64,000 nucleotides of DNA from Nocardia tenerifensis NBRC 101015 (GTDB lineage: Bacteria > Actinomycetota > Actinomycetes > Mycobacteriales > Mycobacteriaceae), in assembly GCF_000308715.1 (NCBI RefSeq), contig NZ_BAGH01000418.1, forward strand, positions 1 through 64,000, given 5' to 3'. Made by a program: the position numbers and the translations under genes. Within the stretch, counting starts at the first letter, position 1; each line of letters begins with the position of its first letter. The notes beneath the pieces are model-generated. The model had not been told where the DNA came from. It saw only the letters and a program-made list of their open reading frames with translations, and ran no database searches. This document shows, piece after piece, positions 7,157 to 48,828 of this stretch.

Positions 7157-8002
7157 CTATTCGGGCATCGGCGGGGAGCCCTTGATGAACCAGTTGATGA
7201 TCTCCTCGCCCGCGAGGATGCCGGTGGCGCGGGTGATGGTGAGATTCGGGTGCGTCCAGTTGAGGTGTTCGAGCTCGCCGTGCCTCGGGCGGATCGCGTA
7301 GTCGGCCGCGCGCAGCATCTCGGCGTCGAGCGCGCCGTCGCCGGCCGCGAAAGTCCGTGCCTCGTCGGCGAGTTCGCCGGACTCCAGGAGCCTGCGCCGA
7401 ACCTCGGCGACGGCGTGGCTCTTGCAGACGACGTCGGGCATGGCGTAGATCTTGCGACCCTGCTGGGAGGCGGACCAGCCGCGTTCCCGGCACCACGCGT
7501 CCCACTCGGCCAGGAAGCCCGCGGGCACCTCCTTGGGGCGCACGACCAGATAGCAGAACAGGTCGTCGGCCTCGCGAAACTTGCTGACCCACGAGTCGTC
7601 GATCCTGGTCCGCAGCTCGGCGGTGATCTCGGACAGGGTCGCGCCGCCCGCGCGCACCTTGGCGTCGATGTCGATGCGCCAGCGCAGATCGGGCACGCCG
7701 TCGACGAGGATATTGCCGCCGTTGCTCGTGATGGCGTAACGCCATGGGGCGCCGGGCAATCGGATGCGCGAGAACTGCTTGATGGTCCGGGTGGTCGTCG
7801 GGATCACCGCGGCGGGCTGGGTGAGGGTCTGCATGCGCAGCGCGGCCGCGGTCGTCATGAACGACAGCGGCGCGCCCTCCAGATGCTCCACGCAGACCGT
7901 CGGCACGTCGGCGTGCGCGCTGAAGGCGTTGCGGGAGTAGATCATTGTTCGATCGAGATCGGTGGCCACGAGCGAGTGTCTTCGTAGCCTGGATAAATCC
8001 AT
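7157..8002 (-). CDS. HAD-superfamily phosphatase of the Ter metabolite operon
   Basis: A 281-residue HAD hydrolase. Motif I DLDRT is at residues 15-19 (nucleophile Asp15, general acid Asp17), a Lys lies in CKSHAVAEV, and motif IV GDGALD is near the C-terminal third. The cap region resembles Cof/sucrose-phosphatase types. ATG 8002 overlaps the stop of the upstream phosphoribosyltransferase gene by one base (TGATG), fixing the start and implying coupling. As the last gene of the operon it probably removes a phosphate from the phosphoribosyl product proposed for Ter-linked pathways (inference from published genome-context predictions). It converges with merR with three bases between stops. Confidence 0.87.
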   Translation of the reverse strand: MDLSRLRRHSLVATDLDRTMIYSRNAFSAHADVPTVCVEHLEGAPLSFMTTAAALRMQTLTQPAAVIPTTTRTIKQFSRIRLPGAPWRYAITSNGGNILVDGVPDLRWRIDIDAKVRAGGATLSEITAELRTRIDDSWVSKFREADDLFCYLVVRPKEVPAGFLAEWDAWCRERGWSASQQGRKIYAMPDVVCKSHAVAEVRRRLLESGELADEARTFAAGDGALDAEMLRAADYAIRPRHGELEHLNWTHPNLTITRATGILAGEEIINWFIKGSPPMPE

Positions 8003-11726: not shown

Positions 11727-11740
11727 TCGTTAACCCATCC

Positions 11741-23863: not shown

Positions 23864-24541
23864 TCACCTGTACGCGACGGGTCCGACGAGCATCGCGCGA
23901 TCGAGGATTTCCGGGATGAATCGCACTTGGGTGAGCTTCGCGGCCAAAGCGAAAGCATTCGGTAGGGCAGAGACGTAGTCGCTCTCGTATCTCTCGTCCT
24001 CGTCCTCCCAGTCGTATTCGTCGTCGCGATCGTTCTCGTCGTCCAGCGAGTCCACGGCCATGCCGAGTTCCCGCATGAACCCGTTGAGCCGGTCAGGCTC
24101 GGAGCCGTATCGAAGGTGGGGGCAGTGCAAGGGGTGGTAGGCCGTGACAATCGTGCCGTCGATCGCGTACCCGAGGCTGTCCTCGGCGTAGCCGTGCCGA
24201 GTGATGGCCAATACCTCACAATCACGCGACAATTCGGCCAGGACATCGTGGAGCGTGGCCATCCACCCGATCGGCTCGATGGCCACGCTCCACTCACCGA
24301 CCTGCAAGACACCCACGGTGCCTCCCCCGTACCCTCCGCCGGTTTTGATAGAGAACTCGGTGGCCTGGTCCATGAGCCCGACGAAGTCCGATTCCTGGCC
24401 GTGATCCTCGCCGCGGCTGAAGCGGCGCACCACCTCCGACGGGTCGAGCCCGCGGAAGAAGGCCACGGTGAAGATATCGTCCAGCAGGGAGTCACCGTCG
24501 TGGAGCCACCGGAATGGGGCCAACGGGTCGGAAGACGTCAT
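23864..24541 (-). CDS. DUF6461-like hypothetical protein
   Basis: A 225-residue acidic soluble protein. DPLAPFRWLHDGD, FTVAFFRGLDPSEVVRRF, VGEWSVAIEPIGWM, VLAITRHGYAEDSLGYA and GSEPDRLNGFMRELG match the pattern of DUF6461 proteins common in Streptomyces and Nocardia. The C-terminal third contains a strongly acidic stretch (DDENDRDDEYDWEDEDE). ATG 24541 (MTSSDPLAPF) is preferred over an upstream in-frame ATG. It is divergent from the beta-propeller gene with a 120-base gap. DUF6461 proteins are often encoded near contact-dependent toxin or immunity loci, but no toxin is visible here. Function unknown. Confidence 0.75.
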   Translation of the reverse strand: MTSSDPLAPFRWLHDGDSLLDDIFTVAFFRGLDPSEVVRRFSRGEDHGQESDFVGLMDQATEFSIKTGGGYGGGTVGVLQVGEWSVAIEPIGWMATLHDVLAELSRDCEVLAITRHGYAEDSLGYAIDGTIVTAYHPLHCPHLRYGSEPDRLNGFMRELGMAVDSLDDENDRDDEYDWEDEDERYESDYVSALPNAFALAAKLTQVRFIPEILDRAMLVGPVAYR

Positions 24542-24661
24542 AGCGTGCATGATGGCAGGTGGTACCGACAACTCGTTTCTTCCTTAGCCAGAGGACAATT
24601 CGAGATCCGCGCGATGATCTCCGCCAGTTGCGGTCCTTGACAGAAGGATTCGGGTTGGCGG

Positions 24662-25753
24662 GTGCGGCGGCGTCGAGAGCGGGTGAGCCATAAAGTATTC
24701 GCGGAAGTGATTTTCGTCTGGTGGACTGGCTGGGTGTTCTGTCAGACGCTGTGGGAGCGGCAGCTACATCAACGGGGCTGTATCAAGGCAGTGGCACTGA
24801 CACCCGAATCGGTCGTCGTCCATGAGCGCAACACGCGGCTCGTCAGCTTGGACCGACCCACGGGCTCGCTTCGTTGGGACGTTTCCGTCGGCAGATGGCC
24901 CCGCGCGGTCCACGTGACCGGCGATCGGTGCCTGGTCATCGCCCAAAACACTCACCAATTGTCCTGTCTGAACGTGCGGACAGGAGCACTGCTCTGGAAT
25001 ACCGCCATCCCTCCGGCGACGGGTCACCTGGTGACCACGGCGGATACTGTGCTCGCTGGTGGCTGGCGAAACTATTCTCCGCTCATGGCGTTTGATCTCG
25101 AGACGGGAGCACGCCGCTGGGAAACGACCGACTGCGTCGACACCGTGCTGCCCGCCCTCGTCGGTGACGGCGTGCTGATCGGAGTGCCGGGCGACACGGT
25201 GATTCGATTGATCCGTCCAGGTGATGGCGAGGAACTATCACGCTGGCGATTGCCGGAGCCACTGATCAGCTGCGATGACCAGCCAGCCTTCACCCCGATC
25301 GGACCCGATCGCTTCCTCGCGCGGTGCGGGCCGAGGTCGGTGGTCGATATACGACTGTCATCCGCCATCGTGCGCGAGTTCGTCCGTGCTGAGGCCGACC
25401 TCGCCGCAACGGCAGTCGAGTACAACGCCGGCATGCTGTGGCTGCGTGAACTTCGCGGCGGTTACCTCGCCGTCGACCCGGTCGACGGCCGTGTGTTGTG
25501 GCGGGTGAATGTCCGCGAGGCGCTGGTTGATCATGTGGCTATGACGAGGGCTGGGCTCGTAGTGGCCACGCACACCGGAGCGTTGCTCCGCTTGGACTCC
25601 GTGGGACAGGTGCTAGAGCGCACCGCCGTGGCCAGAAGGATTTCTGCGTTACGTACCGCGGGACCGAGCGAGCTGCTCGTTCAAACCAAGGGAACCTTGC
25701 TTGCCGCAGAGGTGCTGGATCTCAACCAGACCGAAGAAATGCCATCGAACTGA
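24662..25753 (+). CDS. PQQ-like beta-propeller repeat protein
   Basis: A 363-residue protein built of repeated blades with the PQQ-type pattern: LVSLDRPTGSLRWDVSV, LSCLNVRTGALLWNTAI, LMAFDLETGARRWETTD and LAVDPVDGRVLWRVNV, each ending in a Trp. The first about 35 residues (VFAEVIFVWWTGWVFC) include a hydrophobic stretch that could be a membrane anchor. No catalytic residues are visible, so it may be a binding or scaffold propeller. Start is uncertain within the first 15 codons. It is divergent from the DUF6461-like gene. Function unknown. Confidence 0.75.
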   Translation: MRRRRERVSHKVFAEVIFVWWTGWVFCQTLWERQLHQRGCIKAVALTPESVVVHERNTRLVSLDRPTGSLRWDVSVGRWPRAVHVTGDRCLVIAQNTHQLSCLNVRTGALLWNTAIPPATGHLVTTADTVLAGGWRNYSPLMAFDLETGARRWETTDCVDTVLPALVGDGVLIGVPGDTVIRLIRPGDGEELSRWRLPEPLISCDDQPAFTPIGPDRFLARCGPRSVVDIRLSSAIVREFVRAEADLAATAVEYNAGMLWLRELRGGYLAVDPVDGRVLWRVNVREALVDHVAMTRAGLVVATHTGALLRLDSVGQVLERTAVARRISALRTAGPSELLVQTKGTLLAAEVLDLNQTEEMPSN

Positions 25754-25912
25754 GGTAAGCGCTGCTGGCCACGGCGTGAGACAACTGGAAACCGCCAGGT
25801 CAATCGGCTGGCGGCTGCCGCGAATTTGAGACCCTACAGCAGCAGCTTGGAGGGGATCGCAGGCCTAGCGTTGTCCAGCATCCGTATGTCTCATGAGACG
25901 GCGTGGAGGGCA

Positions 25913-26470
25913 TTACGGAGAGCTGGTCAGCCGGTGCTCGTTGCTGACGGGGCCGGCGGTGAGGTGGATTTGGCCGGCGAGGTGTGAGCAGTCGACTGGG
26001 CCGGTGGTGTCGACGGCCAGCGTGGGTATGAGTCCCAGTGGCGCGGCTTGCGCGGCCCAGGTGTCCCAGTCCTCGGCGAGCCGCTGGTGGTCTTCGTAGA
26101 GGGCGGGACGGTTTCTGCCTGCATAACGAGCCCTGGCGATTTCGGCGGGGACGTCGCACCAGATCTCGATCGCGCGCGAGGCTCCGCTTTTCCGGATTCC
26201 GGTGCGGGCCAAGTACAGGTCACGTGGCTTGAACCACCATGAGTCGATGACGACGGTGCCCGGAATTGCCTGCGCGAGGGCCCATACCGTGTCCATCGCG
26301 ATCCCGCCGAGTGCGCGCAGGTCAGTGGCATCATCGAGGCAGGTCGCAAGGGCTTCCTTGACGGTGTCCTTCGATAGGAACTGGGCGTTCAACGACCGGG
26401 CCAACGCCCGGCCCAATGTCGACTTGCCCGAGCCGGGAAGTCCGTTGACCAGCACCAGGAATTTGTCCAT
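25913..26470 (-). CDS. P-loop kinase-like AAA-family ATPase
   Basis: A 185-residue nucleotide-binding protein. The Walker A motif GLPGSGKSTLGRALA is at the extreme N-terminus, and TVVIDSWWF serves as Walker B. A lid-like segment with Arg residues (RARYAGRNRPALYEDHQ) follows. The layout matches small kinases of the zeta-toxin or chloramphenicol-phosphotransferase-like group in actinobacteria. ATG 26470 starts immediately at MDKFLVLVNG. It may phosphorylate a small molecule; the substrate cannot be deduced. The left flank (25754-25912) holds no supported gene. Confidence 0.75.
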   Translation of the reverse strand: MDKFLVLVNGLPGSGKSTLGRALARSLNAQFLSKDTVKEALATCLDDATDLRALGGIAMDTVWALAQAIPGTVVIDSWWFKPRDLYLARTGIRKSGASRAIEIWCDVPAEIARARYAGRNRPALYEDHQRLAEDWDTWAAQAAPLGLIPTLAVDTTGPVDCSHLAGQIHLTAGPVSNEHRLTSSP

Positions 26471-26606
26471 CGAATCATCATGATGAAGTGCTTGGTGAAG
26501 TCATGCGGTAGTCGTCGAATCGTCGGTGCGGTGGAATTCTTAACCGAGGAGCGTGTTCTCGTGGCGATGGTGGTCGCTGCCCGACCGTGGATTCGAGGGG
26601 CTCGGT

Positions 26607-27023
26607 TCACGGCGCCGATTGTTCTGGGTAAACGGCGATCTCGATCAGGTTTCCGTCCAGATCGCGGCAGTAGTGCGACACCATGTCGCCCAGCGCTCCG
26701 GTCTTGGGCACCGGGCCCTTCGTGATTTCCACACCACACGCCAGCAGGTGCGCCCGGACGTCATCGGGCGATGCGGTGGTGATGAAGCACAGGTCTGCTG
26801 AGCCCGCCGCTTCGACAGCACCGGTCTCCCAATCCGGATCGTCCTGCGAAGCTCCCAGGGGTCGTAGATTGATCTTCTGGTTGCCGAACGCCAAAGCCGT
26901 CCGGCCGGCCGGACCGAATTTTTCGGCTCGCATTCCGAGAACCTTCGTGTACCAGTTCGCGGTCGCCTCGACATCACGGCAATTGATTACGATGTGATCG
27001 AACCGTACGATCTCGAATCCCAT
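26607..27023 (-). CDS. VOC-family (glyoxalase/dioxygenase-like) protein
   Basis: A 138-residue VOC protein. IVRFDHIVINCRDVEATANWY and KINLRPLG form the first beta-alpha-beta module; LCFITTASPDDVRAHL and YCRDLDGNLIEIAVY form the second. The His9 and Glu near the C-terminal LIEIA are metal-ligand candidates. The subgroup resembles virulence-associated VOC proteins of actinobacteria. ATG 27023 is chosen because it gives a short N-terminus typical of the family; the frame is open further upstream. It is divergent from the second VOC gene, but the two do not look like close duplicates. Substrate unknown. Confidence 0.82.
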   Translation of the reverse strand: MGFEIVRFDHIVINCRDVEATANWYTKVLGMRAEKFGPAGRTALAFGNQKINLRPLGASQDDPDWETGAVEAAGSADLCFITTASPDDVRAHLLACGVEITKGPVPKTGALGDMVSHYCRDLDGNLIEIAVYPEQSAP

Positions 27024-27177
27024 TGGTACACAGTACCTTTCGCTTCTGCACGACATATCCGCATGGCTGCGACACATCGGCAACGATGATTTCGCCCCTA
27101 CAGCATCGGCTGCGGTGCTAGTGACGGGCGGCACAGGGCCTTGACCCTGACGTAGCGTGAGGCTCGAGGCTGTTGGC

Positions 27178-27684
27178 ATGACCGAGACTTTCCCTGCATT
27201 CAGTATCAGTCCTGTTCCCGCGCCTGGCGTCGGCGCTGTGCCGCCGGAGCTTTTTCGGGGGATCTACGGCATGCCGATGTATGCCACGGTGCCGACTTCG
27301 GATCTGGCTGCGTCGGCGGAGTTCTGGATTCGTGGGCTGGGGTTCTTCGATCTGTTCTCGGTTCCCGGGCAGATCACTCATCTGCGGCGGTGGGCGTTTC
27401 AGGATGTTCTGCTGGTGCCGGCGGAGCGTGCCGCTGAGGCGACGGCATTGAGTGTGGGCTTTTCGTGTGTGTTGAGTCAGATCGACGAGATTGCCGCCGC
27501 CTGTGCGGAGTTGGTGCCGGGGTGTACGTCGGGGCCGCGCGAAATGCCTTGGAATACGGTGGAGTTGGAGGTGAGGACGCCGGACGATACTCGGGTGATC
27601 ATGACGGCGGCGCGGCCGCACGATCCTAAGAGTGTCGAGGCCGAGTTTCTTCGGTCCATAGGAATCGAAGCGCCTGAACGATGA
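27178..27684 (+). CDS. VOC-family protein coupled to a MerR/TipAL regulator
   Basis: A 168-residue glyoxalase-like protein. MYATVPTSDLAASAEFWIRGLGF starts the VOC fold, and WNTVELEVRTPDDTRVIMTAA is the second module. The expected first metal ligand His is replaced (Tyr or Thr at that place), so it may be a binding protein rather than an enzyme. ATG 27178 follows a short poorly defined leader. Its stop overlaps the next gene's ATG by four bases (ATGA), so it is co-translated with the TipAL-like regulator. This recalls resistance or sensor pairs in which a VOC protein sequesters a drug, but that is only inference. Confidence 0.78.
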   Translation: MTETFPAFSISPVPAPGVGAVPPELFRGIYGMPMYATVPTSDLAASAEFWIRGLGFFDLFSVPGQITHLRRWAFQDVLLVPAERAAEATALSVGFSCVLSQIDEIAAACAELVPGCTSGPREMPWNTVELEVRTPDDTRVIMTAARPHDPKSVEAEFLRSIGIEAPER

Positions 27685-28535
27685 GCATGGCGGCGGTGTC
27701 GCATCGCAGCGCTGCCAGACTGGGCGGTATGACGAAGCGAGCTGCGGCGGACGCCGGTCTCACCGTCGGTGTCGCTGCGACGCGCACGGGCGTGACGATC
27801 CGGACACTGCATCACTGGGATGCGATCGGGTTGGTCCGTCCGTCCGGGCGCACCGACTCCGGGTACCGCCTCTACACGGCTGCGGACCTCGCCCGTATTC
27901 ATCGGGTGCTGATCTACCGTGAGCTCGGCGTACCGCTCGATGACATCAAGACGTTGCTGGAGGCGCCGGCGGGCGATGCGATGGCCTCGCTGCGTGAGCA
28001 GCGTGATCAGCTGCGAGAGCGTGCGGATCGCATGCACCGAATGGCCGGAGCCCTGGACCGTTTGATCGAGGCCAGGGAGAGCGGGATTCTGCTGTCGGCC
28101 GAGGAGCAGGTCGAGATCTTCGGTCGGGACTGGCAACCCTCCTGGGTGGAGGAGGCGCGGGATCAGTGGGGTGACACCGTTCAGTGGGCGCAGTACGCCG
28201 AACGCGCCGCCGGTAGGACGGCCGAGCACTGGCAGCAGATCGCCGCCGGTGTCGAGGCGCTGAACGCGGAGTTGGCCGCGGCCTGCCGCGCGGCGGTGGC
28301 GCCCGGCAGCGACCAGGCCAACGCGCTGGCGGAGCGGCATCGGGCATCGATCGGCGCCTACTTCGACTGCACCCATTCGATGCACGTCTGTCTAGGGCGC
28401 AGGTACGTCACGGATCCGGGATTCGCCGCTTTCTACGACGACCTCGCGCCCGGCCTGGCCACGTGGCTCCGCGACATCATCGACGCCAATGCTCGCGTCC
28501 ACGGCATCGACCCGGAATCGGCGACCTGGAACTGA
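27681..28535 (+). CDS. MerR-family regulator with TipAS-type ligand domain
   Basis: A 284-residue regulator. The MerR HTH is at about residues 25-95 (VGVAATRTGVTIRTLHHWDAIGLV, GYRLYTAADLARI). A coiled coil follows, then a TipAS-type domain at about 160-280 (HRASIGAYFDCTHSMHVCLGRRYVTDPGFAAFYDDLAPGLATWL, shown here in pieces). TipAL proteins sense thiopeptides and other drugs through TipAS. ATG 27681 overlaps the VOC stop; an internal ATG at 27729 is a possible alternative start. It converges with a TetR gene 12 bases away. Confidence 0.87.
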   Translation: MSMAAVSHRSAARLGGMTKRAAADAGLTVGVAATRTGVTIRTLHHWDAIGLVRPSGRTDSGYRLYTAADLARIHRVLIYRELGVPLDDIKTLLEAPAGDAMASLREQRDQLRERADRMHRMAGALDRLIEARESGILLSAEEQVEIFGRDWQPSWVEEARDQWGDTVQWAQYAERAAGRTAEHWQQIAAGVEALNAELAAACRAAVAPGSDQANALAERHRASIGAYFDCTHSMHVCLGRRYVTDPGFAAFYDDLAPGLATWLRDIIDANARVHGIDPESATWN

Positions 28536-38236: not shown

Positions 38237-41200
38237 TCATCGAGGCGGCGGCAGAGAGGCCACCTGGATGAGTTGCGGGTCTTGGGACCGCGTGACCAGG
38301 GTGCCACGCCCCGGCGGGAGCGGGGTGGCGCGCAGGTCGGCGGTGAAGGGCTTGCCCTCTTCGGCCGGGGCGCTCATGAGCAGGGCGGCGGCGGACACCT
38401 CGCGCAGCCTGCCCAGCAGGGTGCCGTGCAGCGCCCTGGCCAGGCCGGTCGACCGGCGCGCGACGACCAGGTGCAGGCCGAGATCGGCTGCGGCGGGCAG
38501 GAATTCGAGCAGCGGCTCGAGCGGGTCGGCGCCGTCGGTCACGATCAGATCGTGGTCGTCGACGACGACGTAGCACTCCGGGCCGGACCACCAGCCGCGC
38601 TCACGCAGCTGGTTCGGGCCGACCTCGGGGCCGGGCACGCGGGCGGCGAGCGTGCGGCACAGCGCGTCGATCGCGTCCGGCACCGCCGCCGCCGAGGCGC
38701 AGTAGGCGGTCAATCGGCGCGGGTCCACCGCGTCGAGCAGGGTGCGCCGGTAGTCGATCAGCAGGATCTCGGCCTGCTCGCGAGTCGAGTTCTCGGCGAT
38801 GCCGAGCAGGATGTTGTGCAGCAGCGTGGTTTTGCCGCAGCCCTGATCGGCGAAGGCCATGAGGTGCGGTTGCGCGTCGAAATCCAGGACCAGCGGCGAC
38901 AATTCGTTCTCGCCGAGGCCGACGGCCAGATGCGTCGCGTCCTGCGCGACACCGGCGTGCAGGGCCGCGCGCAGCACCTGGGCGCGCGGAATCTCCAGCG
39001 GCAGCAGGCGAACCTCCGGCGCCCGCCGGGTCCCATAGATCGTGCGCAGCCGCCGGGCGGCCTCGGCGACCCCAGTGGACAGCTGCTTCGGATCGGTGTC
39101 GGAGTCCAGCCGGGGCAGCGCGATGAGCAGATGCAATTTGTCCGGGGAGAGCCCGCGCCCGGGACGATCCGGCGGCACGGTACCGGCGGCCTGACGATCC
39201 AGCTGGGAGTCGGCGGGGTCGCCGAGCCGCAGCTCGATCAGGGTGCCCGCCACGTCGGGCAGCGCGAGCCGGGTCCTGGTCCACGGCGGCAGCGTGACCA
39301 CGACATGGACACCGAGGCGTGGCCCCTGCGTCGCGATCGTGATGATCGTCTGCTCGAGCGCCGGATAGTCCTGTTGCACAACGTCGAATCCGTCGACGAG
39401 CAGAAATACATCACCGTAGGCGTCCGCCGAGATCGGTTCGGCCGCTCGCTTTTCCGGCGGCAACTCCGCCACTCGTGCCTTGCGCGAACGGAACTCACGC
39501 ATCGACACGAGCCCGAGTTCGTGGAACCGCTGCTCCCTGCGGCCGACGAGGGCGGCCACCTCGGCTACGGTGCGGCGCACCCGATCCGAGTCGCGCCGCC
39601 CGGCGACGGACCCGACATGCGGGAACTCGGCCAGCCCGGCCAGCGCGCCGCCCATGTCCAGGCAGTAGAACTGCACCTGCTCCGGCGTGTGCGTGGCCGC
39701 GGCGGCCACCACCAGCGTCCGCAGCGCGGTCGACTTCCCCGACCGCGGGCCGCCGACGATCGCCAGGTGCCCCGTGCTGTCCGACAGGTCGGCGAACAGC
39801 ACGTCGCGGTAGTGCCCGCGCGGTACGTCGACGACGCCGATCGGCAGCCGCAGCAACCCGGCCTGCTCCGTCACCGACGGCGTATCCCGCTGGCGCAGCA
39901 GCATTCCCACGGTCGGTGAGTCGCCGAGCGGATCGGTCCACACCACATGCGCGGCGGAGCCGTGGCCGCCGAGAGCCACCGCGAGCGACTCCGACACCGG
40001 ACGATCGACCGGTCCCGCGCCGCCGGAGATCGACGGGCCGGGCCCGGAGGCGTACGCGGTCCGGAAACGCGTCACGGCTCCGGTGCCGATGCGCAGATAT
40101 CCGTACCCGGGTATCCGGGGCAGGTGATAGGCGTCGGTGGTGCCCAGCACAAGCCGGGACTCGGCGGCCGAAAAGGTGCGCAGCGCAATGCGATACGAGA
40201 GATAGGTGTCCAGCGCGCGCAGCCGCCATTCGTCGGGCCGCTGCGTGCCGAGCAGCAGGTGCATGCCGAGCGACCGGCCGAGCCGCCCGATCCGGACCAG
40301 CACGTCGACGAATGTCGAAGTCCCCGAGAGCAACTCGACGAACTCCTCGATCACGATCACCAGCGCGGGCAGCGGCGGCAGCGGCGCGCCGCCGGCCCGT
40401 GCCTGCTCGTACTCGCCGATCGTGGTGTACGGGCCGCTGTCCTCGAGATGCCTGCGCCGCCGGTCGATCTCGCCGTCGAGCACGTCCTGCAGGCGTTCGC
40501 GCAGATAGAGATCCTGCTCCACGTCGCGGACATGCCCGGCGAGGTGCCGCAGGCTGGCTAACGGCTGGAACGTCGCACCGTTCTTGAAGTCGACGAGCAG
40601 GAAGTTCACCCGCTCCGGGCCGTGATGCAGCGCCAGTCCGAGCACGATGGTGCGCAGCAGCTCCGATTTTCCCGAGCCGGTCGCGCCGACCACCAGTCCG
40701 TGCGGGCCCATGCCGCCCTCGGCCCCCTGTTTGAGATCGAGCAGCACCGGGTCGCCCGGGCGCGTCGCACCGATGGGTATTCGCAACGCGTCCCGCGGCG
40801 CGCGCTCACCCCACCAGTGGTCGATATCGAGCGCGGAGATGTCGCCGAGGCCGTGCAGCGCGGCGAAACTCGCCTCGACCTCCGGCCCCGCCGAGCCGGC
40901 GCCTGCCCCCTCGGTCGTGTGCCGCGCTCGCACCCGGGCGACCAGGTCGGCCGCGCCGTCGGTCATGTCGTCCACCATCCGGGGGTCCGCGGGCGGCTCG
41001 CGAATGTCGGGCACCGCGATGCGGAACGGCTGCTGCTGGTGCAGCGCCCACCCCGGCCCCTCCGGCAGGCGCACGGCAAGCTCCGGATCGATGTGCGAAT
41101 CGCGAGGCTGGTGCATGCGCAGCTCGATCTGCACGGCCAGCAGCCGCACCATCCAGTCCGGCACCTCGCTCCAATCCCGGACGGTGGCGACCACGTGCAC

Positions 41201-42586
41201 GGCATACTCCGGCCCGGTGTCGGCTATGCGGCGCACCGTCTCCTGGATTCTCGGCAGCAGCTCGGCGAAGTCCTCCCAGCGGTCGAGGACCAGGAACAGA
41301 TCCGGCACCGGGCTCTCGGGCAGCGTGGCCCGAACCGCCCGCAGGCTGGTCGGCGAGTCGATGTTGTGCTTGCGGTACAACCGCTTTCGGCGGCCGATCT
41401 CCTCCATCATGCGCTGCAGCAGCTCGGCGACCTGCTCGGGCTCGTCGTCGCAGACGACGTCCGCGACGTGCGGCAGTTCGCGCATCGAGCCGAGACGATT
41501 GCTGGACTCGAGCACGTGCACGCGCGCCTCGTCGGGCGAGTGGGTCAGCGCGAGCGAGGCCACCACCGTGCGCAGCAGGGTGCTCTTGCCGGAACCGGCG
41601 CGCCCCACGACGAGCAGGCCGTTGTCCGGCCCGGCGAACTCGAGCTGCACGATGTCGCCCGCGGTGCCGTCCGGCCTGCGCTGCCTGCCGATCGGCACCG
41701 CCAATCTGCCGGTGCCCCACCAGTTCTCCGCGCGCAGGCCCGAATCGTCGACCTGCTCCAGCCGGCCGAGCAGGCTGCCGAGCAGCACACGATCGCCGCC
41801 GTCGCCTGCGCCCGCCGTGCGGCGGCGCGTGCGCGCGATGTAGACCTCGTCCTTCAGAAAACCGTAGTGGTTCGGGGTCTGCCGGTCGGTGCGGCGACGC
41901 ACCTCGTCGTAGACGTGGGTCCACAGATCGTGGGTGCTGATCTGCCCGGTGCCGCTGCCGGCCAGCCCATTGCTGGTGATGCCGTTGACGATCGCCGAGG
42001 TGAACATCGACAGCGGCACGGAATCGTCCGCGGCGGAACGCACTCCGTCCTCGGCGATCTGCACGCCGGTGCAGGCGGTCATCACGCAGATCCCGTCGCC
42101 GGTGCCGAGGAACTGCCCGACGCCGTCGTCCTGGCCGTCGACCGCCTTGATCACGTCGTTGCCGAAGAACGCGCCGCTGTAGCAGCAATCGAGCAGGATG
42201 ATCTTGGCCGTGGCGCTCGACTCGTGGATCAGTTCCTTGATGAACGCCGAGGACACCGCGGAGCTGCTCGGCAGATTCGGGTCGGTGTTGCAGGCGGCGA
42301 GATACAGGTTGCGGCTGGTCCGGAAGCCGTGGCCGGAGTAGTAGAACAGCACGAGATCCTCCGGCCCGGCGCCGCGGAACAGCCGCTCGATGCCGCGCTC
42401 GATCTCCGTCTTCGACTCGTTGACCAGGATCTCGGCCGGTTGGAAGGCGCCGATGCTGGGGTCGTGCAACAGGTTTCGCAGCTCACGGGCGTCCGAGACG
42501 GGTGCGTAGAGCTGGGCGATCGACGGCGAGTGGAAGGTGTCGTTGGCGACGAACAGCGCGATCCGGCGGCCCCGGGGGCTAGTCAT
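38237..42586 (-). CDS. Caspase-like protease fused to four FtsK/EccC-type ATPase domains
   Basis: A 1449-residue protein. Residues about 1-255 form a caspase (C14) domain with catalytic His86 in YYSGHGFR and Cys135 in LLDCCYSG. Four P-loop domains follow, with Walker A motifs near 328-336 (VGRAGSGKST), 633-641 (VGATGSGKSE), 944-952 (VGGPRSGKST) and 1246-1253 (ADQGCGKTT). Walker B strands are LFLVLDRW, LVIVIEEF, VFLLVDGF and CYVVVDD. The second domain has the EccC-D1-like LVDFKNGATF. ESX EccC proteins carry three such domains, so an extra one has been added. ATG 42586 overlaps the EACC1 stop by eight bases, tying the two products together. The caspase-EACC1 pairing is known from actinobacterial conflict systems; the output is unknown. 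Confidence 0.9.
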   Translation of the reverse strand: MTSPRGRRIALFVANDTFHSPSIAQLYAPVSDARELRNLLHDPSIGAFQPAEILVNESKTEIERGIERLFRGAGPEDLVLFYYSGHGFRTSRNLYLAACNTDPNLPSSSAVSSAFIKELIHESSATAKIILLDCCYSGAFFGNDVIKAVDGQDDGVGQFLGTGDGICVMTACTGVQIAEDGVRSAADDSVPLSMFTSAIVNGITSNGLAGSGTGQISTHDLWTHVYDEVRRRTDRQTPNHYGFLKDEVYIARTRRRTAGAGDGGDRVLLGSLLGRLEQVDDSGLRAENWWGTGRLAVPIGRQRRPDGTAGDIVQLEFAGPDNGLLVVGRAGSGKSTLLRTVVASLALTHSPDEARVHVLESSNRLGSMRELPHVADVVCDDEPEQVAELLQRMMEEIGRRKRLYRKHNIDSPTSLRAVRATLPESPVPDLFLVLDRWEDFAELLPRIQETVRRIADTGPEYAVHVVATVRDWSEVPDWMVRLLAVQIELRMHQPRDSHIDPELAVRLPEGPGWALHQQQPFRIAVPDIREPPADPRMVDDMTDGAADLVARVRARHTTEGAGAGSAGPEVEASFAALHGLGDISALDIDHWWGERAPRDALRIPIGATRPGDPVLLDLKQGAEGGMGPHGLVVGATGSGKSELLRTIVLGLALHHGPERVNFLLVDFKNGATFQPLASLRHLAGHVRDVEQDLYLRERLQDVLDGEIDRRRRHLEDSGPYTTIGEYEQARAGGAPLPPLPALVIVIEEFVELLSGTSTFVDVLVRIGRLGRSLGMHLLLGTQRPDEWRLRALDTYLSYRIALRTFSAAESRLVLGTTDAYHLPRIPGYGYLRIGTGAVTRFRTAYASGPGPSISGGAGPVDRPVSESLAVALGGHGSAAHVVWTDPLGDSPTVGMLLRQRDTPSVTEQAGLLRLPIGVVDVPRGHYRDVLFADLSDSTGHLAIVGGPRSGKSTALRTLVVAAAATHTPEQVQFYCLDMGGALAGLAEFPHVGSVAGRRDSDRVRRTVAEVAALVGRREQRFHELGLVSMREFRSRKARVAELPPEKRAAEPISADAYGDVFLLVDGFDVVQQDYPALEQTIITIATQGPRLGVHVVVTLPPWTRTRLALPDVAGTLIELRLGDPADSQLDRQAAGTVPPDRPGRGLSPDKLHLLIALPRLDSDTDPKQLSTGVAEAARRLRTIYGTRRAPEVRLLPLEIPRAQVLRAALHAGVAQDATHLAVGLGENELSPLVLDFDAQPHLMAFADQGCGKTTLLHNILLGIAENSTREQAEILLIDYRRTLLDAVDPRRLTAYCASAAAVPDAIDALCRTLAARVPGPEVGPNQLRERGWWSGPECYVVVDDHDLIVTDGADPLEPLLEFLPAAADLGLHLVVARRSTGLARALHGTLLGRLREVSAAALLMSAPAEEGKPFTADLRATPLPPGRGTLVTRSQDPQLIQVASLPPPR

Positions 42587-42947
42587 CGGCTAAGAGACCC
42601 CGCAACTGGTCGACGAGGTCGTCGACCTGCCCGTCCGTCGGCCGCACGATGGTGACGCGGCGGTCGCCGTTGCGCACCGTCACCGACTCGGCGCGGCCGC
42701 GCGCCAGGAACCGCAGGACGATATCGCGGATCGCCCAGGCGGTGGTGCCGAGCGCGCCCCCGGACACCAGCAACTGGCCGACCTCGATCGCGGTACCGGA
42801 TTTGGTGCCGGGACTACCGGCCGTCGTCGCCGTGCCGACGCGCACGCCGGAGATCTCCCGTAGCTCGTCGGCGAGTTCGTCGGTCAGCCGATCGAGTCGC
42901 CGTGTGTCTCCCGGACCGACCGTGACGATGAACAACAAGTCGGCCAT
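42579..42947 (-). CDS. EACC1 (effector-associated constant component 1)
   Basis: A 122-residue protein with LLFIVTVGPGDTRRLDRLTDEL at the start, GTKSGTAIEVGQLLVSGGALG, then IRDIVLRFLARGRAESVTV and RRVTIVRPTDGQVDDLVDQL. This is the pattern of the effector-associated constant component 1 described in ternary conflict systems, with one hydrophobic helix that may contact the membrane or a partner. ATG 42947 has GGGGAGGC just upstream. Its stop lies inside the start of the caspase-ATPase gene. It is thought to be a constant partner of variable effectors; the biochemical role is unknown. Confidence 0.85.
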   Translation of the reverse strand: MADLLFIVTVGPGDTRRLDRLTDELADELREISGVRVGTATTAGSPGTKSGTAIEVGQLLVSGGALGTTAWAIRDIVLRFLARGRAESVTVRNGDRRVTIVRPTDGQVDDLVDQLRGLLADD

Positions 42948-43131: not shown

Positions 43132-43980
43132 GTGGATGAGCAACAACAAGAGTCGCCGTTCGCCCGCTCGATGTTCACCCGGGTCGACCGCAGCGCCAGG
43201 GCGTACGCCGACGAGGAGCTGCACAGGTTCCTGGCCCAGAAGTGGGATGTGCGCCGGCGCGAAGGCGAACAGGCGCTGTTGGATTCGTTCACCAAGCACG
43301 TCGAGGCGATCGTCGCCAAGTACGACCCGCCGGGCATTCGCCGGCGCAGCGACAGCCTGCTGTTCGCGCGCGGCTACGCGCGCCTGGATCAGACGGCCGG
43401 ACCGAGCGGGCAGGTCTCGCCGGAGGTGCTGGTCGCGCTGTTCGCCGCCGAGGTCGAGTACCGGGGTCCGCTGCGGTTGAGCCGCACGCAGAGCCGGCGG
43501 CTCGCCGAGGTCTACGAACTGATCGGCACCGCGTTGGCGCCGGTGTTGCCCAGCCATGCGGCGCTGGCGTTCCAGCGCGCGTGGAGCCTGTTCCGCCAGG
43601 ACGGGGACACCGACGCGGAGGACCGCTGCGGCCTGAGCCTGGCCAGGGCGCGGCGGCGGGCCCAGCCGATCCGGTGGCGCAGGGGCGTCGGCTACTTCTC
43701 GGATCTGGTGTGCGGCTATGGGTATCGCCCGTATCGGATGCTGCTGTGGATAGTGCTGCAGGTCGGCTTGTCGATCGTGATCGTGCGCTGGCTGTCCACC
43801 GCCTCCACGGTGACGGTGGTCTACGACTGCGCCATGAACTACCTCAACCCCCTCAGCTCCTCGGATACCGCGGGGCTGCAGGGGGCCGCTCAGCTGGTCT
43901 TCGTTGTGCAGGCGTACGCGGGGGTGCTGTCGACGTCGGTGTTCTTCGCGCTGCTCGTGCGGCGCTGGTTCCGGCTCTGA
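43132..43980 (+). CDS. Hypothetical protein with C-terminal membrane segments
   Basis: A 282-residue protein. About 200 residues of charged helical sequence (EGEQALLDSFTKHVEAIV, RLSRTQSRRLAEVYELI, FQRAWSLFRQDGD) precede two hydrophobic segments (MLLWIVLQVGLSIVIVRWL at about 204-222, and AQLVFVVQAYAGVLSTSVFFALLV at about 252-275). The second ends in VRRWFRL. The two segments flank a loop (NYLNPLSSSDTAGLQG) that vaguely recalls a two-helix ion-channel pore, but the selectivity motif is missing. GTG 43132 is the start. It is divergent from the EACC1-caspase operon across 184 bases and converges with the SCO252x cassette. No family is recognised. Confidence 0.7.
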   Translation: MDEQQQESPFARSMFTRVDRSARAYADEELHRFLAQKWDVRRREGEQALLDSFTKHVEAIVAKYDPPGIRRRSDSLLFARGYARLDQTAGPSGQVSPEVLVALFAAEVEYRGPLRLSRTQSRRLAEVYELIGTALAPVLPSHAALAFQRAWSLFRQDGDTDAEDRCGLSLARARRRAQPIRWRRGVGYFSDLVCGYGYRPYRMLLWIVLQVGLSIVIVRWLSTASTVTVVYDCAMNYLNPLSSSDTAGLQGAAQLVFVVQAYAGVLSTSVFFALLVRRWFRL

Positions 43981-43999: not shown

Positions 44000-44977
44000 T
44001 CACCAGTCGTGGCTGATTATTTTGGAATGCCGCAGCGCCTTGAGGGTTTCAGTGGTCACCCGGTCGCGCAGCTGGCCGACGCGGGCGGTCCACTGCCGGG
44101 TGAACCCGGGGTCGGACTCGAGTTCCGCCCACAGCCGCCGCAGTCCGGGCGAGGCGTGCGCGCCCGGCATCCACAGCGGCACAAGCTGATCGAGCATCGG
44201 CACGAGTTGGTCGAGCAGCATGTCGGTCTCGTGGTCGGAGGCCCCGCCGCGGTCGGCCATCTGACTGATGGTGGTCAGCAGCCAATCGTGGGCCGCCAAA
44301 TCCTCGCAGAAGCGTTGCGCGGCGGCCATATCCGGCTCCGCCATGGTGAGCCGCACCGAGCGCACCCGCTTACCGACGAGCCGAAAGGCGAAGCGCGGCA
44401 GCTCATTCGCGTCCGGGTCCACCTCGACGGCCCAGCGTAGCCGAGTTGTCCCGGCCCGGAAGGGCATTCGCTGATCGAGCCGGGGATCGACACGGATGAA
44501 GGTCGACATCCGCTGGCTGATCGAGGTCAGGTCCAGCTGGTCCTCTTCGTGCGCGCGCAGATGCCCGTCGGCCAGCCGACCGGCGGGGGCGTCGCCGAGC
44601 TTGCTCACCGCCTCCACCGTGCCCGGCATGCTCAGATAATGCGACCACGGCTGCCGCGCGGCCTCCTGTGCCCGCGTCACCCGAGTCTGCGAGGAACCCT
44701 GCAGGATTCGGCCGCCGACCACGACCGCGCGCGAGGCGATCGTGCCGATGACGTGAACGTGCTTGCCCGACAACGGAATCAGATCGCAGTCGACGCCCTC
44801 GACCCGGTTCGGCGAGATCGCCAGCGGGATAGGCCTTTCCCGGGACGAGACGGTACTGCCCGGCTGCACCGCGCTCAGCAGCTCGCTGCTCGCGGGCAGA
44901 TCGAGCACGTTGCGCGAGGGCAGAAGGCACGTGTGGATCTCCCCGAGCACGGCCAGCGGCGAATCGGGCCCGGTCAC
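44000..44977 (-). CDS. SCO2521-family protein
   Basis: A 325-residue protein of unknown function. LAVLGEIHTCLLPSRNVL at the start, RPIPLAISPNRVEGVDCDL, and IGTIASRAVVVGGRILQG match the SCO2521 family of Streptomyces and Nocardia. GTG 44977 overlaps the SCO2522-type stop by four bases (GTGA). It is the last gene of a four-gene overlapped cassette and converges with the membrane-protein gene at 43980. No catalytic motif is visible; the C-terminal half is helical. Confidence 0.82.
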   Translation of the reverse strand: MTGPDSPLAVLGEIHTCLLPSRNVLDLPASSELLSAVQPGSTVSSRERPIPLAISPNRVEGVDCDLIPLSGKHVHVIGTIASRAVVVGGRILQGSSQTRVTRAQEAARQPWSHYLSMPGTVEAVSKLGDAPAGRLADGHLRAHEEDQLDLTSISQRMSTFIRVDPRLDQRMPFRAGTTRLRWAVEVDPDANELPRFAFRLVGKRVRSVRLTMAEPDMAAAQRFCEDLAAHDWLLTTISQMADRGGASDHETDMLLDQLVPMLDQLVPLWMPGAHASPGLRRLWAELESDPGFTRQWTARVGQLRDRVTTETLKALRHSKIISHDW

Positions 44978-46026
44978 GACGGCGTCGGCAAGATCGCGTG
45001 CTCGGCGGCGGGCAGGCGCTTGACGACCTCGTCGACGAACACATGGGACAGGCGCTGGCCGACCTCCCGCGGAATCACGATCCGCTCGTCGGCGCCGCGC
45101 TTGATGGTCTTGTCCAAGACCTCCTGATCGATGACGATGTGGTCCAGGATCGTCCGGACCGCGTGCTCGATGTTCAAGTAACTCTGCGGCAGAATCGACA
45201 GCGCCTGATACGCCGCGAACGGCGCGGCCTTCGGATTCAGCTGCACCACCGACGGCATCTCCCACCAGCTCTTCGGCCAGCTCGCGGCGCGCGGCACCGG
45301 CTCGACCACCGCCCGGCCCTCGTAGCGGACCATGCCCAGGCGCAGCAGCTGCCAGATCGAGGCCAGGAAGGGGCAGGACCAGCGGGTGTTCTCCTCGCCG
45401 TCCTTGCCGATCTGCTTGTTCCACAGCTCGACGTCGAGGAAGATCGAGTGTTCGCGGCTGCCGAGCTCTTTCGGATGGCGATACTCCGGCACCTGCATCG
45501 CCTGATCCGAGTCGTGCTCGGAGGAGCGCCGCCCGTTGCACAGCCAGCCGGACTCGACGTCGGGTGGGCGTCGTCCGGTGGTGGGCTGCACCGGCTCGGC
45601 CACGAGCCAGGACGCGACCATCTCGGCCAGCTTGATCTGCTGCCCGGTCAGGTGGCCGTCGACGTACAGCGGCGTCTCCCAGCAGCCCGCCTCGCGCGCG
45701 AGATAGTCGATGCGCAGCTCGCAGTCGTTCGCGATGTCGAGCACCTTCGTGAGGATCTCGGTCGGGTCGGTGTTCGGGCCGAAGTAGTCATCGATCAGGA
45801 AACAGGTACTCACCCGCGCGGATTCACCGAAGTCCGCCTTCGCGGCCTCGGTGTACAGGTCGACCAGCTTTGCCACCCGCTTGAAGTGTGCGCGGATCGT
45901 AGCGTCATCCCCATTCGTCAGGTTCTTCATATAGAAGTGCCCCGTTTCGATGGAAAGATGCGCCAACTCCACGCCGGCGACCTGGACCTGCTCGGTCGCC
46001 TCGCTGTACACGGTGGCATCGTTCAT
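44974..46026 (-). CDS. SCO2522-family protein
   Basis: A 350-residue protein. VAGVELAHLSIETGHFYM, RVSTCFLIDDYFGPNTDP and LRIDYLAREAGCW match the SCO2522 family. A conserved DDYF acidic patch and the CW residues could form a site, but no known enzyme fold is recognised. ATG 46026 overlaps the SCO2523-type stop (ATGA) and its own stop overlaps the SCO2521-type start, so the cassette is fully coupled. Function unknown. Confidence 0.85.
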   Translation of the reverse strand: MNDATVYSEATEQVQVAGVELAHLSIETGHFYMKNLTNGDDATIRAHFKRVAKLVDLYTEAAKADFGESARVSTCFLIDDYFGPNTDPTEILTKVLDIANDCELRIDYLAREAGCWETPLYVDGHLTGQQIKLAEMVASWLVAEPVQPTTGRRPPDVESGWLCNGRRSSEHDSDQAMQVPEYRHPKELGSREHSIFLDVELWNKQIGKDGEENTRWSCPFLASIWQLLRLGMVRYEGRAVVEPVPRAASWPKSWWEMPSVVQLNPKAAPFAAYQALSILPQSYLNIEHAVRTILDHIVIDQEVLDKTIKRGADERIVIPREVGQRLSHVFVDEVVKRLPAAEHAILPTPS

Positions 46027-46958
46027 GACCAGAAGAGCCCGTCCTTGTCTATGAGTCCCTCGGCCAATTCCTCGAACGCGTCGACGGTTTCCTTATTGGC
46101 GATCTTGGCGTCGACGTCGGCGTCCAGAATGACCTGTTCCCGCCACTGCAGCACCGGCTCGACCGGCGTGGTGCCCAGCGTGACGCTCAGGCCGATCTGA
46201 TTGGCCTGAGCGAGCTGTTCCAAAGCCTCGTTCTGCTTGCGCAACCACGCCCACTGCGGCCCGCGGTCCTTGTCGCCGGCCCCCTCGTCGGTCGACGGCA
46301 CGGCGGTGCGCACGTAGCGCACAGATTCAAGCAGACGCCCCGCTTCGTGGCCAAATTTCGCGCCGGTCACCAGAATTCCGTTCGGGCCGTGCACCAAACC
46401 GTTGGCCGCCAGGATATGTTGCCGGGTCCAGCGGTGGAATACGAGCCACCGCGCCGTCGACTCGCGCAGTGGCTCGGCGGCGGTGGCGCGCAGCACGATC
46501 TCCAGCGCCGCCGAGCGGCCCGCGCTGAGATCGACGAAGGTGACGTCGTAGTCCTGTTTGCAGATGGTGAGCAGGTCGATGCACTGCTTCACCACCTTGT
46601 CGGTCGGCGCGAACTCACCGCCGCCGCGGTCGCCGGGGAACAGGGTCAGCTGATAGGGGTGCCGAAGGGCGTGCAGGTCTTTGCGATTGGTCTCCGACCG
46701 GATATCGCGCCCGGTGGGCATTTTGTCCTTGCCCGTCAGGTACCGGTGCAGCCCTTGATTATCGGTGACGCCGCGGTCCATCTTATCGATCTCGAACAGC
46801 GCGCCCGAGGTCGGCGACCCGAAATCGAAGTCGAGATAGGCGACGTTGTACCCCTGGACGCTGAGCCGGTAGGCAATGTTACAGCTGGTCACGGACCGGC
46901 CGGTGCCGCCTTTGTCCGACGTCGAGAAAACGAGGATGCGCTCGCTCAACTCATTCAC
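46023..46958 (-). CDS. SCO2523-family variant P-loop protein
   Basis: A 311-residue MinD/ParA-like P-loop protein. Its loop reads STSDKGGTGRSVTS: the first lysine of the deviant Walker A is kept, but the second is an Arg. YLDFDFGSPTSGALFEI is the switch-like strand and DVTFVDLSAGRS the Walker B. GTG 46958 overlaps the SCO2524-type stop by eight bases. ParA-like NTPases position cargo or sense nucleotides at membranes; here the partner is probably the SCO2521/2522/2524 set. Function unknown. Confidence 0.88.
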   Translation of the reverse strand: MNELSERILVFSTSDKGGTGRSVTSCNIAYRLSVQGYNVAYLDFDFGSPTSGALFEIDKMDRGVTDNQGLHRYLTGKDKMPTGRDIRSETNRKDLHALRHPYQLTLFPGDRGGGEFAPTDKVVKQCIDLLTICKQDYDVTFVDLSAGRSAALEIVLRATAAEPLRESTARWLVFHRWTRQHILAANGLVHGPNGILVTGAKFGHEAGRLLESVRYVRTAVPSTDEGAGDKDRGPQWAWLRKQNEALEQLAQANQIGLSVTLGTTPVEPVLQWREQVILDADVDAKIANKETVDAFEELAEGLIDKDGLFWS

Positions 46959-48828
46959 CCCTCATCGCATCGAGACTGGCGACTTCGAGACCATCCAGCT
47001 CGCGCAGGGCATCGACGCACAAGCTGAATGCCGTGCCGGGACGCTCATCGATCAATTTGCTCGCTCGCAGCAGATTCTTCTCGACGCTCTCCAGGGCCCG
47101 GCGATTAGGCGTGTTGTCCCTTTCACTGAGCTCGAGAAATCTCTGATTGAGCAGATGGTCGGCTTCATCGAGCAATTCCAGCGCGCGCGTCAGCGACGTC
47201 GGGGAACGGAACGGCGGATTCAGATAGGTCGACTCCGCCACGACCAGGCACTCGATGATGCGTTCGGTGAAATACCAAGAGGGCGGTGCGGTCTCGTCCC
47301 GCGTGGTGCGCGTGTACTCCCCACTCGACGAACGCTCGAAGGCGCGCGCCGCGTCGTCCCACAGGCCTTTGGCCGGACCGCTCGGAAAGGCGCGCTGCTC
47401 CAGGTGGTCCATCGTCGCCTGCGCCAGTGCCAGCAGCCGCCTGCGGGTGGACAGCGTGCGCGACAGCTGCGCCGCCTGCAGGATGCGCTTGAGCAACATC
47501 GGCGCGTAGTCCGACACCGACCAGTACAGCAGCGGACCCTGGTCGATCGTCTCGATGCCGTGCAGTGTCAGCAGCACGCCGGGGACGTGCAGCCCGAGCG
47601 CCGGGTCGTCCTCGGTCAGCCTGCGGGTGATGCGGCCGCGGCGAGCCAGTTCGTCGAAGATCAGGGTGGCCCTGGTGAGGTCGTCGTCGTCGGCTTCGCG
47701 GGCGATGAGGTCCTGGATCAGCAGGCCCGAGACACAGAGACTGAAGTAGTCCGACTCCTCGCCGTCGGAGGTGCGCCAGGGGATGTCCTCCAGCGGCCAG
47801 TCGCCGTCGCCGTATCGGGCCATCGCCGACCAGTACCGTTGCGCCAGATCCCAGCGCAGCTGCAGCGCGTCGGCGAGGCGGCGCTGCTCGGCGTCGAGCA
47901 GGTCGAGTTCGCGGGTGCGCGGCTGGGTGAGGTCGTTGATGCCGTCGAGCGCGGTGATGGTGAAGTACAGGTAGGGGCGCGCGATCGCGAAACCCTCCGA
48001 TTTGGCGATCGGCACGTCGATGAAGTCGATGATCTCGGCGTCCTTGACCACGCCCCAGCTCCAGCCGCACTCGAACATCAGGCCTTCGCTCTCCAGGTCG
48101 GCCTGCGGCGTCTTGTTCAGCGTGACGTCTCGGCGCAGCCTGCCGCGGACCCGTTCGAGCCGCCGCGCCACGCCGCTGACCACCGCGTCGGGTTCGGCGC
48201 CGGTCTGGTTGAACATGCTGAGCATCGCCTCGCCGGTCTCGCTGTCGGGGTCGACCGACTGGACCACGAAGCTGCGCACCAGACCGACCATGGCCGCGGT
48301 GAGCCGCTTGTTGAGGCGCGCCTCGACGGGCTTGATCAACTGCTCCAACCGCTGCTGCTCACCGGAGCCGCCGGTCGACTCCCGCAGTGCGCGAAGGAAT
48401 TGCAGGCCGGCCAGGCAGACGGTGAGCGACATGGAGTACGCGTCGACCACGTCGACGGAGCGCTGCCGGTCGGTGGCGCCCGCGGCGTCGGTGGCGCGCA
48501 GATAGCTACCCGCCGCGAAGACCGGCTGCTCGTCGTGTTCGTAGCGCAGCAGGTAATCATCGAGCACCTCGACGATCTTCATGCCGATGCGTCGCTCGCG
48601 GCCCAGCGGTTTCAAGATCGTGCGGACGTCGTCGGCGATCCGGTCGGGGTTGTGCAGTGCGAAACTGCCGATCTGGGTGGCCGGATAGAGCAGACACAGC
48701 AGTTGCTCGGCGTCGCTGATGGAGTTCGAGCCGTCGCGCCCGCCCCAGATCCAGGCGTTGTCTTGGTAGCAGGCCGCCAGCAATGAACTCCAGACATTCA
48801 GAATCTGGCGCCGTGGCTGGATTCTCAT
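46951..48828 (-). CDS. SCO2524-family protein
   Basis: A 625-residue mainly helical protein. IQPRRQILNVWSSLLAACY, WIWGGRDGSNSISDAEQLLC and LYPATQIGSFALHNPD match the SCO2524 family. No P-loop, nuclease or transferase motif is visible. ATG 48828 follows GAAAGG. It is the first gene of the overlapped SCO2524-2523-2522-2521 cassette; the promoter must lie in the 638-base gap to the right. The conserved size and gene order across actinomycetes imply a functional unit. Function unknown. Confidence 0.85.
   Translation of the reverse strand: MRIQPRRQILNVWSSLLAACYQDNAWIWGGRDGSNSISDAEQLLCLLYPATQIGSFALHNPDRIADDVRTILKPLGRERRIGMKIVEVLDDYLLRYEHDEQPVFAAGSYLRATDAAGATDRQRSVDVVDAYSMSLTVCLAGLQFLRALRESTGGSGEQQRLEQLIKPVEARLNKRLTAAMVGLVRSFVVQSVDPDSETGEAMLSMFNQTGAEPDAVVSGVARRLERVRGRLRRDVTLNKTPQADLESEGLMFECGWSWGVVKDAEIIDFIDVPIAKSEGFAIARPYLYFTITALDGINDLTQPRTRELDLLDAEQRRLADALQLRWDLAQRYWSAMARYGDGDWPLEDIPWRTSDGEESDYFSLCVSGLLIQDLIAREADDDDLTRATLIFDELARRGRITRRLTEDDPALGLHVPGVLLTLHGIETIDQGPLLYWSVSDYAPMLLKRILQAAQLSRTLSTRRRLLALAQATMDHLEQRAFPSGPAKGLWDDAARAFERSSSGEYTRTTRDETAPPSWYFTERIIECLVVAESTYLNPPFRSPTSLTRALELLDEADHLLNQRFLELSERDNTPNRRALESVEKNLLRASKLIDERPGTAFSLCVDALRELDGLEVASLDAMRGE

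Follow-up and report, generated by a model that had tools for sequence, protein, structure and literature searches.

The window analyzed here is a 64,000-nucleotide stretch of the Nocardia tenerifensis NBRC 101015 genome (contig NZ_BAGH01000418.1, positions 1 to 64,000), and the element under study is a cassette of four consecutive minus-strand genes encoding members of the SCO2524, SCO2523, SCO2522 and SCO2521 protein families, in that order. These are a 625-residue SCO2524 family protein (46951–48828; NCBIfam model NF040567, 782 bits against a cutoff of 300), a 311-residue ParA/MinD-like P-loop protein of the SCO2523 family with the motif KGGTGRS (46023–46958; NF040564, 427 bits, cutoff 200), a 350-residue SCO2522 family protein (44974–46026; NF040566, 427 bits, cutoff 200) and a 325-residue SCO2521 family protein (44000–44977; NF040565, 362 bits, cutoff 150), all four exceeding the curated cutoffs. 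The matches are full length and the set recurs in 111 loci, and as a gene set the cassette is far beyond chance. These 111 loci comprise the window itself, 30 stretches from 28 other or same genomes that a SCO2523 search recovered, and 80 named loci, namely the best 80 of the 221 recovered with SCO2522. The set holds repeats (L053 and L086 are one genome) as well as near-identical species, and counts refer to loci, not to independent events. Genes were called with a simple script that leaves some shadow frames.

Gene Junctions

Neighboring genes of the cassette share 8 bases at 46951–46958, 4 bases at 46023–46026 and 4 bases at 44974–44977. An original prediction, made from the window's letters, had described four overlapped genes in this order and with these overlaps, and order, coordinates and overlaps are borne out, with the reservation that the 8-base overlap of SCO2524 and SCO2523 hinges on the GTG start at 46958: with the in-frame TTG at 46949, 9 bases downstream, as the SCO2523 start, a 1-base gap results. 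Choosing the SCO2523 start closest to the preceding stop gives a gap of at least 0 in 100 of 116 junctions of relatives, and the same rule applied to the window also selects the TTG at 46949. The 4-base overlap of SCO2523 and SCO2522 is found at 69 of 115 junctions and that of SCO2522 and SCO2521 at 11 of 89 same-strand junctions, with SCO2521 on the opposite strand in 24 of the 111 loci. As a background value from the same loci, with all cassette genes excluded, 74 of 233 closely spaced gene pairs on one strand can form a 4-base overlap. The overlaps are ordinary operon packing, the one between SCO2523 and SCO2522 being frequent and the other two not. The contention that they fix the stoichiometry of the products is therefore rejected: such packing is commonplace, and the overlaps are not conserved in relatives.

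Co-inheritance and Descent

Because all 111 loci were found via one cassette member, the genome-wide comparison is the cleaner test of co-inheritance. Among 298 genomes of the order, SCO2523, SCO2522 and SCO2521 each score above cutoff in an identical set of 29 (sets compared by eye). At the level of loci, these three are present in 111 of 111 and SCO2524, which was checked in loci only, in 110 of 111, and the order and strand of SCO2524-2523-2522 are likewise kept in 110. SCO2521–2524 form one unit. The stable complex that had been read from the overlaps is plausible on account of this co-inheritance of SCO2523, SCO2522 and SCO2521 in the same 29 genomes; the overlaps, not being conserved, give it no support.

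Within the window's genus SCO2522 occurs in 87 of 118 genomes, and it was found in none of 14 control genomes. No SCO2522 relative at E 1e-5 was found in 50,697 phage records or in 72,556 plasmid records; one of the named loci, L120, is titled a plasmid contig. A quick tree, with long branches flagged, was calculated from the 76 of 103 loci in which SCO2524, SCO2523 and SCO2522 are all alignable (named loci, the window and the window's second copy). It tracks families, requiring 7 changes for 7 groups against a minimum of 6 and a shuffled mean of 40.8, with 3 changes needed for Nocardiaceae and 2 for Pseudonocardiaceae. The window cassette is most closely related to the cassettes of N. colli, N. 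vulneris and N. brasiliensis, the top identity being 83% over 1234 columns. Mostly vertical inheritance is the best reading of the cassette's history. Most named carriers belong to genera that we take to be mycelial, Rhodococcus rhodnii (L138) being the least typical.

The cassette is not always single. A second, divergent full cassette resides in the same genome as the window (L042, G000:C602:11000-30000, at about 7447–12247), its SCO2522 being matched in two pieces (C602 21259–21429 and 21429–22250) as a result of a frameshift or an assembly error. Two complete cassettes lie adjacent to each other in tandem in L049, L068 and L078 and inverted in L080, an arrangement suggesting that the module has been duplicated locally in its entirety.

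The Variant P-Loop of SCO2523

SCO2523 is the only one of the four proteins matched by Pfam (PF01656, 29.7 bits, cutoff 25.4; PF10609, 29.5 bits, cutoff 27.1) and carries the P-loop signature. By sequence, the solved proteins closest to it are of the Mrp, MinD and Soj types, with a best E of 0.001. In ParA/MinD proteins the P-loop lysine supports hydrolysis and is usually held essential. In SCO2523 this lysine is an arginine: the deviant Walker A motif KGGxGK[ST] of ParA/MinD is replaced by KGG[TA]GR[ST] in 112 of 112 intact distinct proteins, reading KGGTGRS in 110 and KGGTGRT and KGGAGRS in one each (two of the 117 called copies are fragments that lack the motif). Otherwise the family resembles the ParA/MinD/Mrp ATPases in its P-loop region, in the first, or signature, lysine of KGGxGxS, which is kept, in an aspartate-rich, switch-like stretch (D[FY]DFGSPT, 112 of 112) and in DLSAGRS at the expected Walker B position (D[LVI]SAGRS, 109 of 112).

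SCO2523 had been described beforehand as a MinD/ParA-like protein with arginine for the P-loop lysine, and the description is correct for KGGTGRS. The substitution is not a peculiarity of the window: a local mutation is rejected by its presence throughout the family, and the NCBIfam name of the family already reads "variant P-loop protein". A second family, NF047398 ("KGGVGR-motif variant AAA ATPase"), shares the arginine by name and matches SCO2523 at 40.5 bits, below its cutoff of 90. A wider KGGVGR set was looked for in the window's genome and not found, as only the two SCO2523 copies among 8 model matches read KGGxGR, the other six reading KGGxGK. Fixation of the arginine across the family indicates that the protein is kept by selection despite lacking a residue usually held essential, and suggests that SCO2523 may be a nucleotide-binding scaffold or slow switch and not a fast ATPase; its nucleotide cycle may be altered, as first supposed.

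Predicted Folds of SCO2522, SCO2524 and SCO2521

An AlphaFold2 model of SCO2522 built from an alignment of 87 proteins reached a predicted local distance difference test (pLDDT) score of 89.8 and a predicted template modeling (pTM) score of 0.88. VIA-align comparison of this model with the top Foldseek chains gave Z scores of 12.4–10.5, and all 50 listed rows are class I synthetases (for Arg, Cys, Met and Glu) or MshC, among them cysteinyl-tRNA synthetase (CysRS) 3sp1 (Z 12.3, root-mean-square deviation (rmsd) 3.0 over 187) and MshC 3c8z (Z 10.7); for models without a clear match a best Z of 7 to 8 is typical. SCO2522 is thus predicted to have a class I aminoacyl-tRNA-synthetase-like catalytic domain. 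The match covers residues 20–341 of 350, which leaves no room for a tRNA-binding domain beyond the catalytic domain. Within the 87 sequences 28 columns are invariant, including H23, S25, E27, H30, D79, D80, D107, R111, H193 and D198, and the stretch STCFLIDDYF possibly occupies the position of NVTD(I/V)(D/E)D in CysRS and MshC, as judged by eye. A profile search of solved structures with SCO2522 returned nothing credible.

The AlphaFold2 model of SCO2524 (86 sequences; pLDDT 91.5, pTM 0.89) predicts an alpha/alpha toroid of about residues 1–540 followed by a helical C-terminal extension. Its best VIA row, 5x32_A, has a Z of 20.3 with 332 residues aligned at an rmsd of 3.9, the listed rows running from Z 20.3 to 16.8, and for helical models a best Z of 14 has been noted as reference. 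These rows are mixed, with sugar epimerases, GH76 mannanases, glucuronyl hydrolases, squalene-hopene cyclases, complement domains and others, and consequently the fold, though not the chemistry, is clear. The predicted likeness is to toroid enzymes of the N-acylglucosamine 2-epimerase group, GH76 and the squalene-hopene cyclases, from which SCO2524 differs in having no Pfam match, extra C-terminal helices and no conserved DxDD, the squalene-hopene cyclase motif being found in 18 of 112 SCO2524 proteins. Invariant residues include D39, H414 and D491. A profile search of solved structures with SCO2524 gave nothing credible, the best hit being YacP at E 0.037 against the C-terminal helices. SCO2521 has neither a Pfam match nor a credible solved relative by profile (best E 0.17), and profile comparisons of three pairs of core families revealed no relation.

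Neighboring Genes

Convergent with SCO2521 lies a plus-strand gene (43132–43980) for a 282-residue protein that has two hydrophobic segments near its C-terminus (hydropathy peaks at 200–218 and 255–276), no NCBIfam match and no Pfam match above cutoff. We refer to its family as c7TM. Counting neighbors within 7 kb by profile searches of all frames, c7TM accompanies the cassette in 31 of 111 loci and another membrane protein family, c5TM, in 54. Members of c5TM have two hydrophobic segments at most and match DUF6879 weakly, at 19.7 bits against a cutoff of 23.9. The two families are unrelated in profile comparison and, scored over the whole locus, mutually exclusive (both present in 0 of the 104 loci that have any neighbor match). 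Among the 80 named loci, again over the whole locus, the 23 Nocardiaceae have c7TM in 19 cases and c5TM in 1, the 5 Pseudonocardiaceae have c7TM in 4 and c5TM in 1, and the one Frankia locus has c7TM. The c5TM type is found in 16 of 16 Streptosporangiaceae, 23 of 25 Streptomycetaceae and 5 of 7 Micromonosporaceae loci. This split by lineage makes the replacement look old rather than polymorphic.

A GNAT protein accompanies the cassette in 53 of 111 loci, a tentative link given how broad a group single linkage produced. A large protein of about 1400 residues, c19, stands beside the cassette in 13 of 111 loci (including L032–L034, L038–L041 and L059–L061), and its start presumably resembles that of a DUF4062-type conflict protein. 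Further along in the window, on the minus strand, a 1449-residue fusion (38237–42586) joins an N-terminal caspase domain to a full FtsK ATPase of the EccC-like kind known from type VII secretion (TIGR03925, 913 bits; Peptidase_C14, 56 bits; both above cutoffs), and scores 137.8 bits with NF047832 (EACC1-associated caspase), just below the cutoff of 140. Its start is overlapped by 8 bases by a small minus-strand gene (42579–42947) that is EACC1-like by position only, with no family match and no hydropathy peak at the threshold used. The caspase gene accompanies the cassette in 8 of the 111 loci, namely the window and seven close Nocardia loci, and fusion and small gene are probably not part of the module. 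Elsewhere in the window, 24001–28000 has the lowest G+C (0.632) among sixteen 4-kb blocks.

SCO2525 and the Streptomyces coelicolor Locus

The reference for the cassette is the SCO2521–SCO2525 locus of S. coelicolor (NF040564–NF040568): all four window proteins exceed the curated cutoffs of its families and stand in the usual order, and the window differs in having c7TM, not c5TM, as its membrane gene and in that its genome lacks a match to SCO2525. A gene for this methyltransferase (NF040568) adjoins or lies close to the cassette in 53 of 111 loci and, scored over the whole locus, is present in 24 of 25 Streptomycetaceae loci, where it precedes SCO2524 in the arrangements listed. NF040568 had no match in the window's genome or in four other core carriers of the same genus (0 of 5), and the model did match in G228, the positive control.

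The 2004 mutant screen of Gehring et al. is said to have shown an influence of SCO2525 on colony growth and development. Excerpts of PMC11472566 count "an operon sco2521-sco2526" among the genes under HupS control and call SCO2525 "necessary for normal growth", citing that study, those of PMC6344877 speak of "a morphogenetic role" for SCO2525, and those of PMC3017869 mention SCO2525 mutagenesis in connection with S-adenosylmethionine (SAM). The earlier remark that the four families are annotated only as numbers agrees with NCBIfam and Pfam and needs qualifying for the locus as a whole, since the adjoining SCO2525 has this published role in growth and morphogenesis (PMC11472566, PMC6344877). 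In a literature search by locus tags, family names and P-loop motifs, the passages retrieved from papers naming SCO2525 or SCO2521 give no function for SCO2521–2524. Kaur et al. 2020 (PMC7159879), in the portions consulted here, describe conflict systems that use MinD/ParA-like domains, which they predict to be inactive, and the window has, close to its cassette, a caspase-type gene of the kind seen in their system 4; the cassette itself is not named, "SCO25" occurring 0 times in the main text.

Discussion

The reading we favor, at a probability of roughly 40%, is that SCO2521–2524 is an obligate, vertically inherited ligase/switch complex of mycelial actinobacteria. On this view the four gene products would make up a single protein module, obligate and passed on mostly by vertical descent in mycelium-forming actinobacteria. 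SCO2522, with its predicted synthetase-like fold, and SCO2524, with its predicted toroid, probably act by binding and processing a small molecule or a group attached to a carrier. SCO2523 would bind nucleotide as a slow switch or scaffold and SCO2521 would complete the complex, whose action probably takes place at the adjacent membrane protein where there is one. The SAM methyltransferase SCO2525 may, in Streptomyces and certain other lineages, feed or modify the same pathway, the output of which would affect hyphal growth and development. Family identity, co-inheritance, the invariant arginine, the predicted folds and the alternative membrane neighbors are what the analysis shows; the physical complex, substrate, nucleotide behavior, membrane action and any developmental output, above all outside Streptomyces, are conjectural in this proposal. 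In its most ambitious form, the proposal describes a new biochemical machine, composed of a synthetase-fold ligase free of HIGH and KMSKS, a toroid enzyme and an Arg-P-loop switch, that makes or transfers a molecule controlling hyphal growth at the membrane, with SCO2525 as optional tailoring enzyme, and in this form we hold it only tentatively and on the doubtful side.

Several observations weigh against the favored reading. The top VIA row of SCO2522, arginyl-tRNA synthetase (ArgRS) 1iq0 at Z 12.4, has an rmsd of 8.5, the 50 rows repeat few enzymes, chiefly methionyl-tRNA synthetase, and the best Foldseek match, ArgRS, is at E 0.06 only. HIGH- and KMSKS-like patterns occur in 0 of 114 SCO2522 sequences in a whole-sequence pattern search, as distinct from a structural superposition, and their lack may mean that there is no adenylation at all. 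Profile comparison of SCO2522 with actinobacterial CysRS (15) and MshC (15) returned nothing, at an HH probability of at most 2.3%. The likeness to class I synthetases and MshC is one of predicted catalytic-domain fold, set against the missing patterns, the missing tRNA-binding domain and the missing profile similarity. For SCO2524 the best Foldseek match is at E 1.1e-3. The unit itself has one exception, L037 (G252:C34:41500-59500), in which SCO2524 was not found by tblastn with two queries; an 870-residue frame is called immediately before SCO2523 at this locus. The core is also patchy, SCO2522 being present in 33 of 345 genomes and 7 of 126 genera of the class; the genus of G523 (Streptomyces by inference) has it in 20 of 121 genomes. 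Neither c5TM nor c7TM is near the cassette in 26 of 111 loci. Finally, as SCO2525 is absent from all five core carriers examined in the window's genus, the SCO2525 phenotype need not carry over to the core.

The same enzyme features may alternatively be read as relics. SCO2522, SCO2523 and SCO2524 would then have kept their folds and lost catalysis, and a regulatory scaffold of pseudoenzymes would sense ligand or nucleotide and signal to the membrane protein. The P-loop arginine in 112 of 112 proteins and the lack of HIGH- and KMSKS-like patterns in all 114 sequences fit this, as does the inactivity predicted by Kaur et al. 2020 (PMC7159879) for MinD/ParA-like domains of the conflict systems they describe. 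We nevertheless regard this reading as rather unlikely: the 28 invariant columns of SCO2522, many of them polar and including the motifs HxSxExGH and STCxxxDDY, and the invariant D, H and R residues of SCO2524 resemble a maintained active or ligand site.

A conflict or defense role, in which detection of an invader by the core would set off a membrane effector and so lead to death or arrest of the cell, draws on the surroundings of the cassette: two unrelated membrane neighbors (54 and 31 of 111 loci) that never occur together, the large c19 neighbor in 13 loci, the conflict-type caspase fusion near the window cassette, and the patchy presence in the genus of G523. To these may be added a weak PADLOC match of SCO2523 (residues 6–66) to PDC-M28B at E 7e-07. 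The other three core proteins, however, have no PADLOC match, no SCO2522 relative came up at E 1e-5 in phage or plasmid records (although L120 is titled a plasmid contig), the cassette tree follows taxonomy, the membrane types split by lineage such that the swap looks old, not polymorphic, and the caspase neighbor is confined to 8 loci, and we consider defense improbable. Least probable by our estimate is a ParA/MinD-type positioning system placing a membrane or wall complex along the hypha, for although SCO2523 bears the ParA/MinD signature with the first lysine of KGGxGxS kept, and Mrp/MinD/Soj-type proteins as nearest solved relatives (best E 0.001), the lysine that supports hydrolysis is arginine in all SCO2523 proteins and the modeled partners, toroid SCO2524 and synthetase-like SCO2522, look unlike ParB or MinE.

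Conclusions

The cassette belongs to a catalogued and named set of families without an assigned function, and it is the predicted folds together with the strict co-inheritance that deserve follow-up. Co-inheritance and two recognizable, altered enzyme folds lead to concrete biochemical hypotheses, and to a connection with SCO2525 and its published role in growth.

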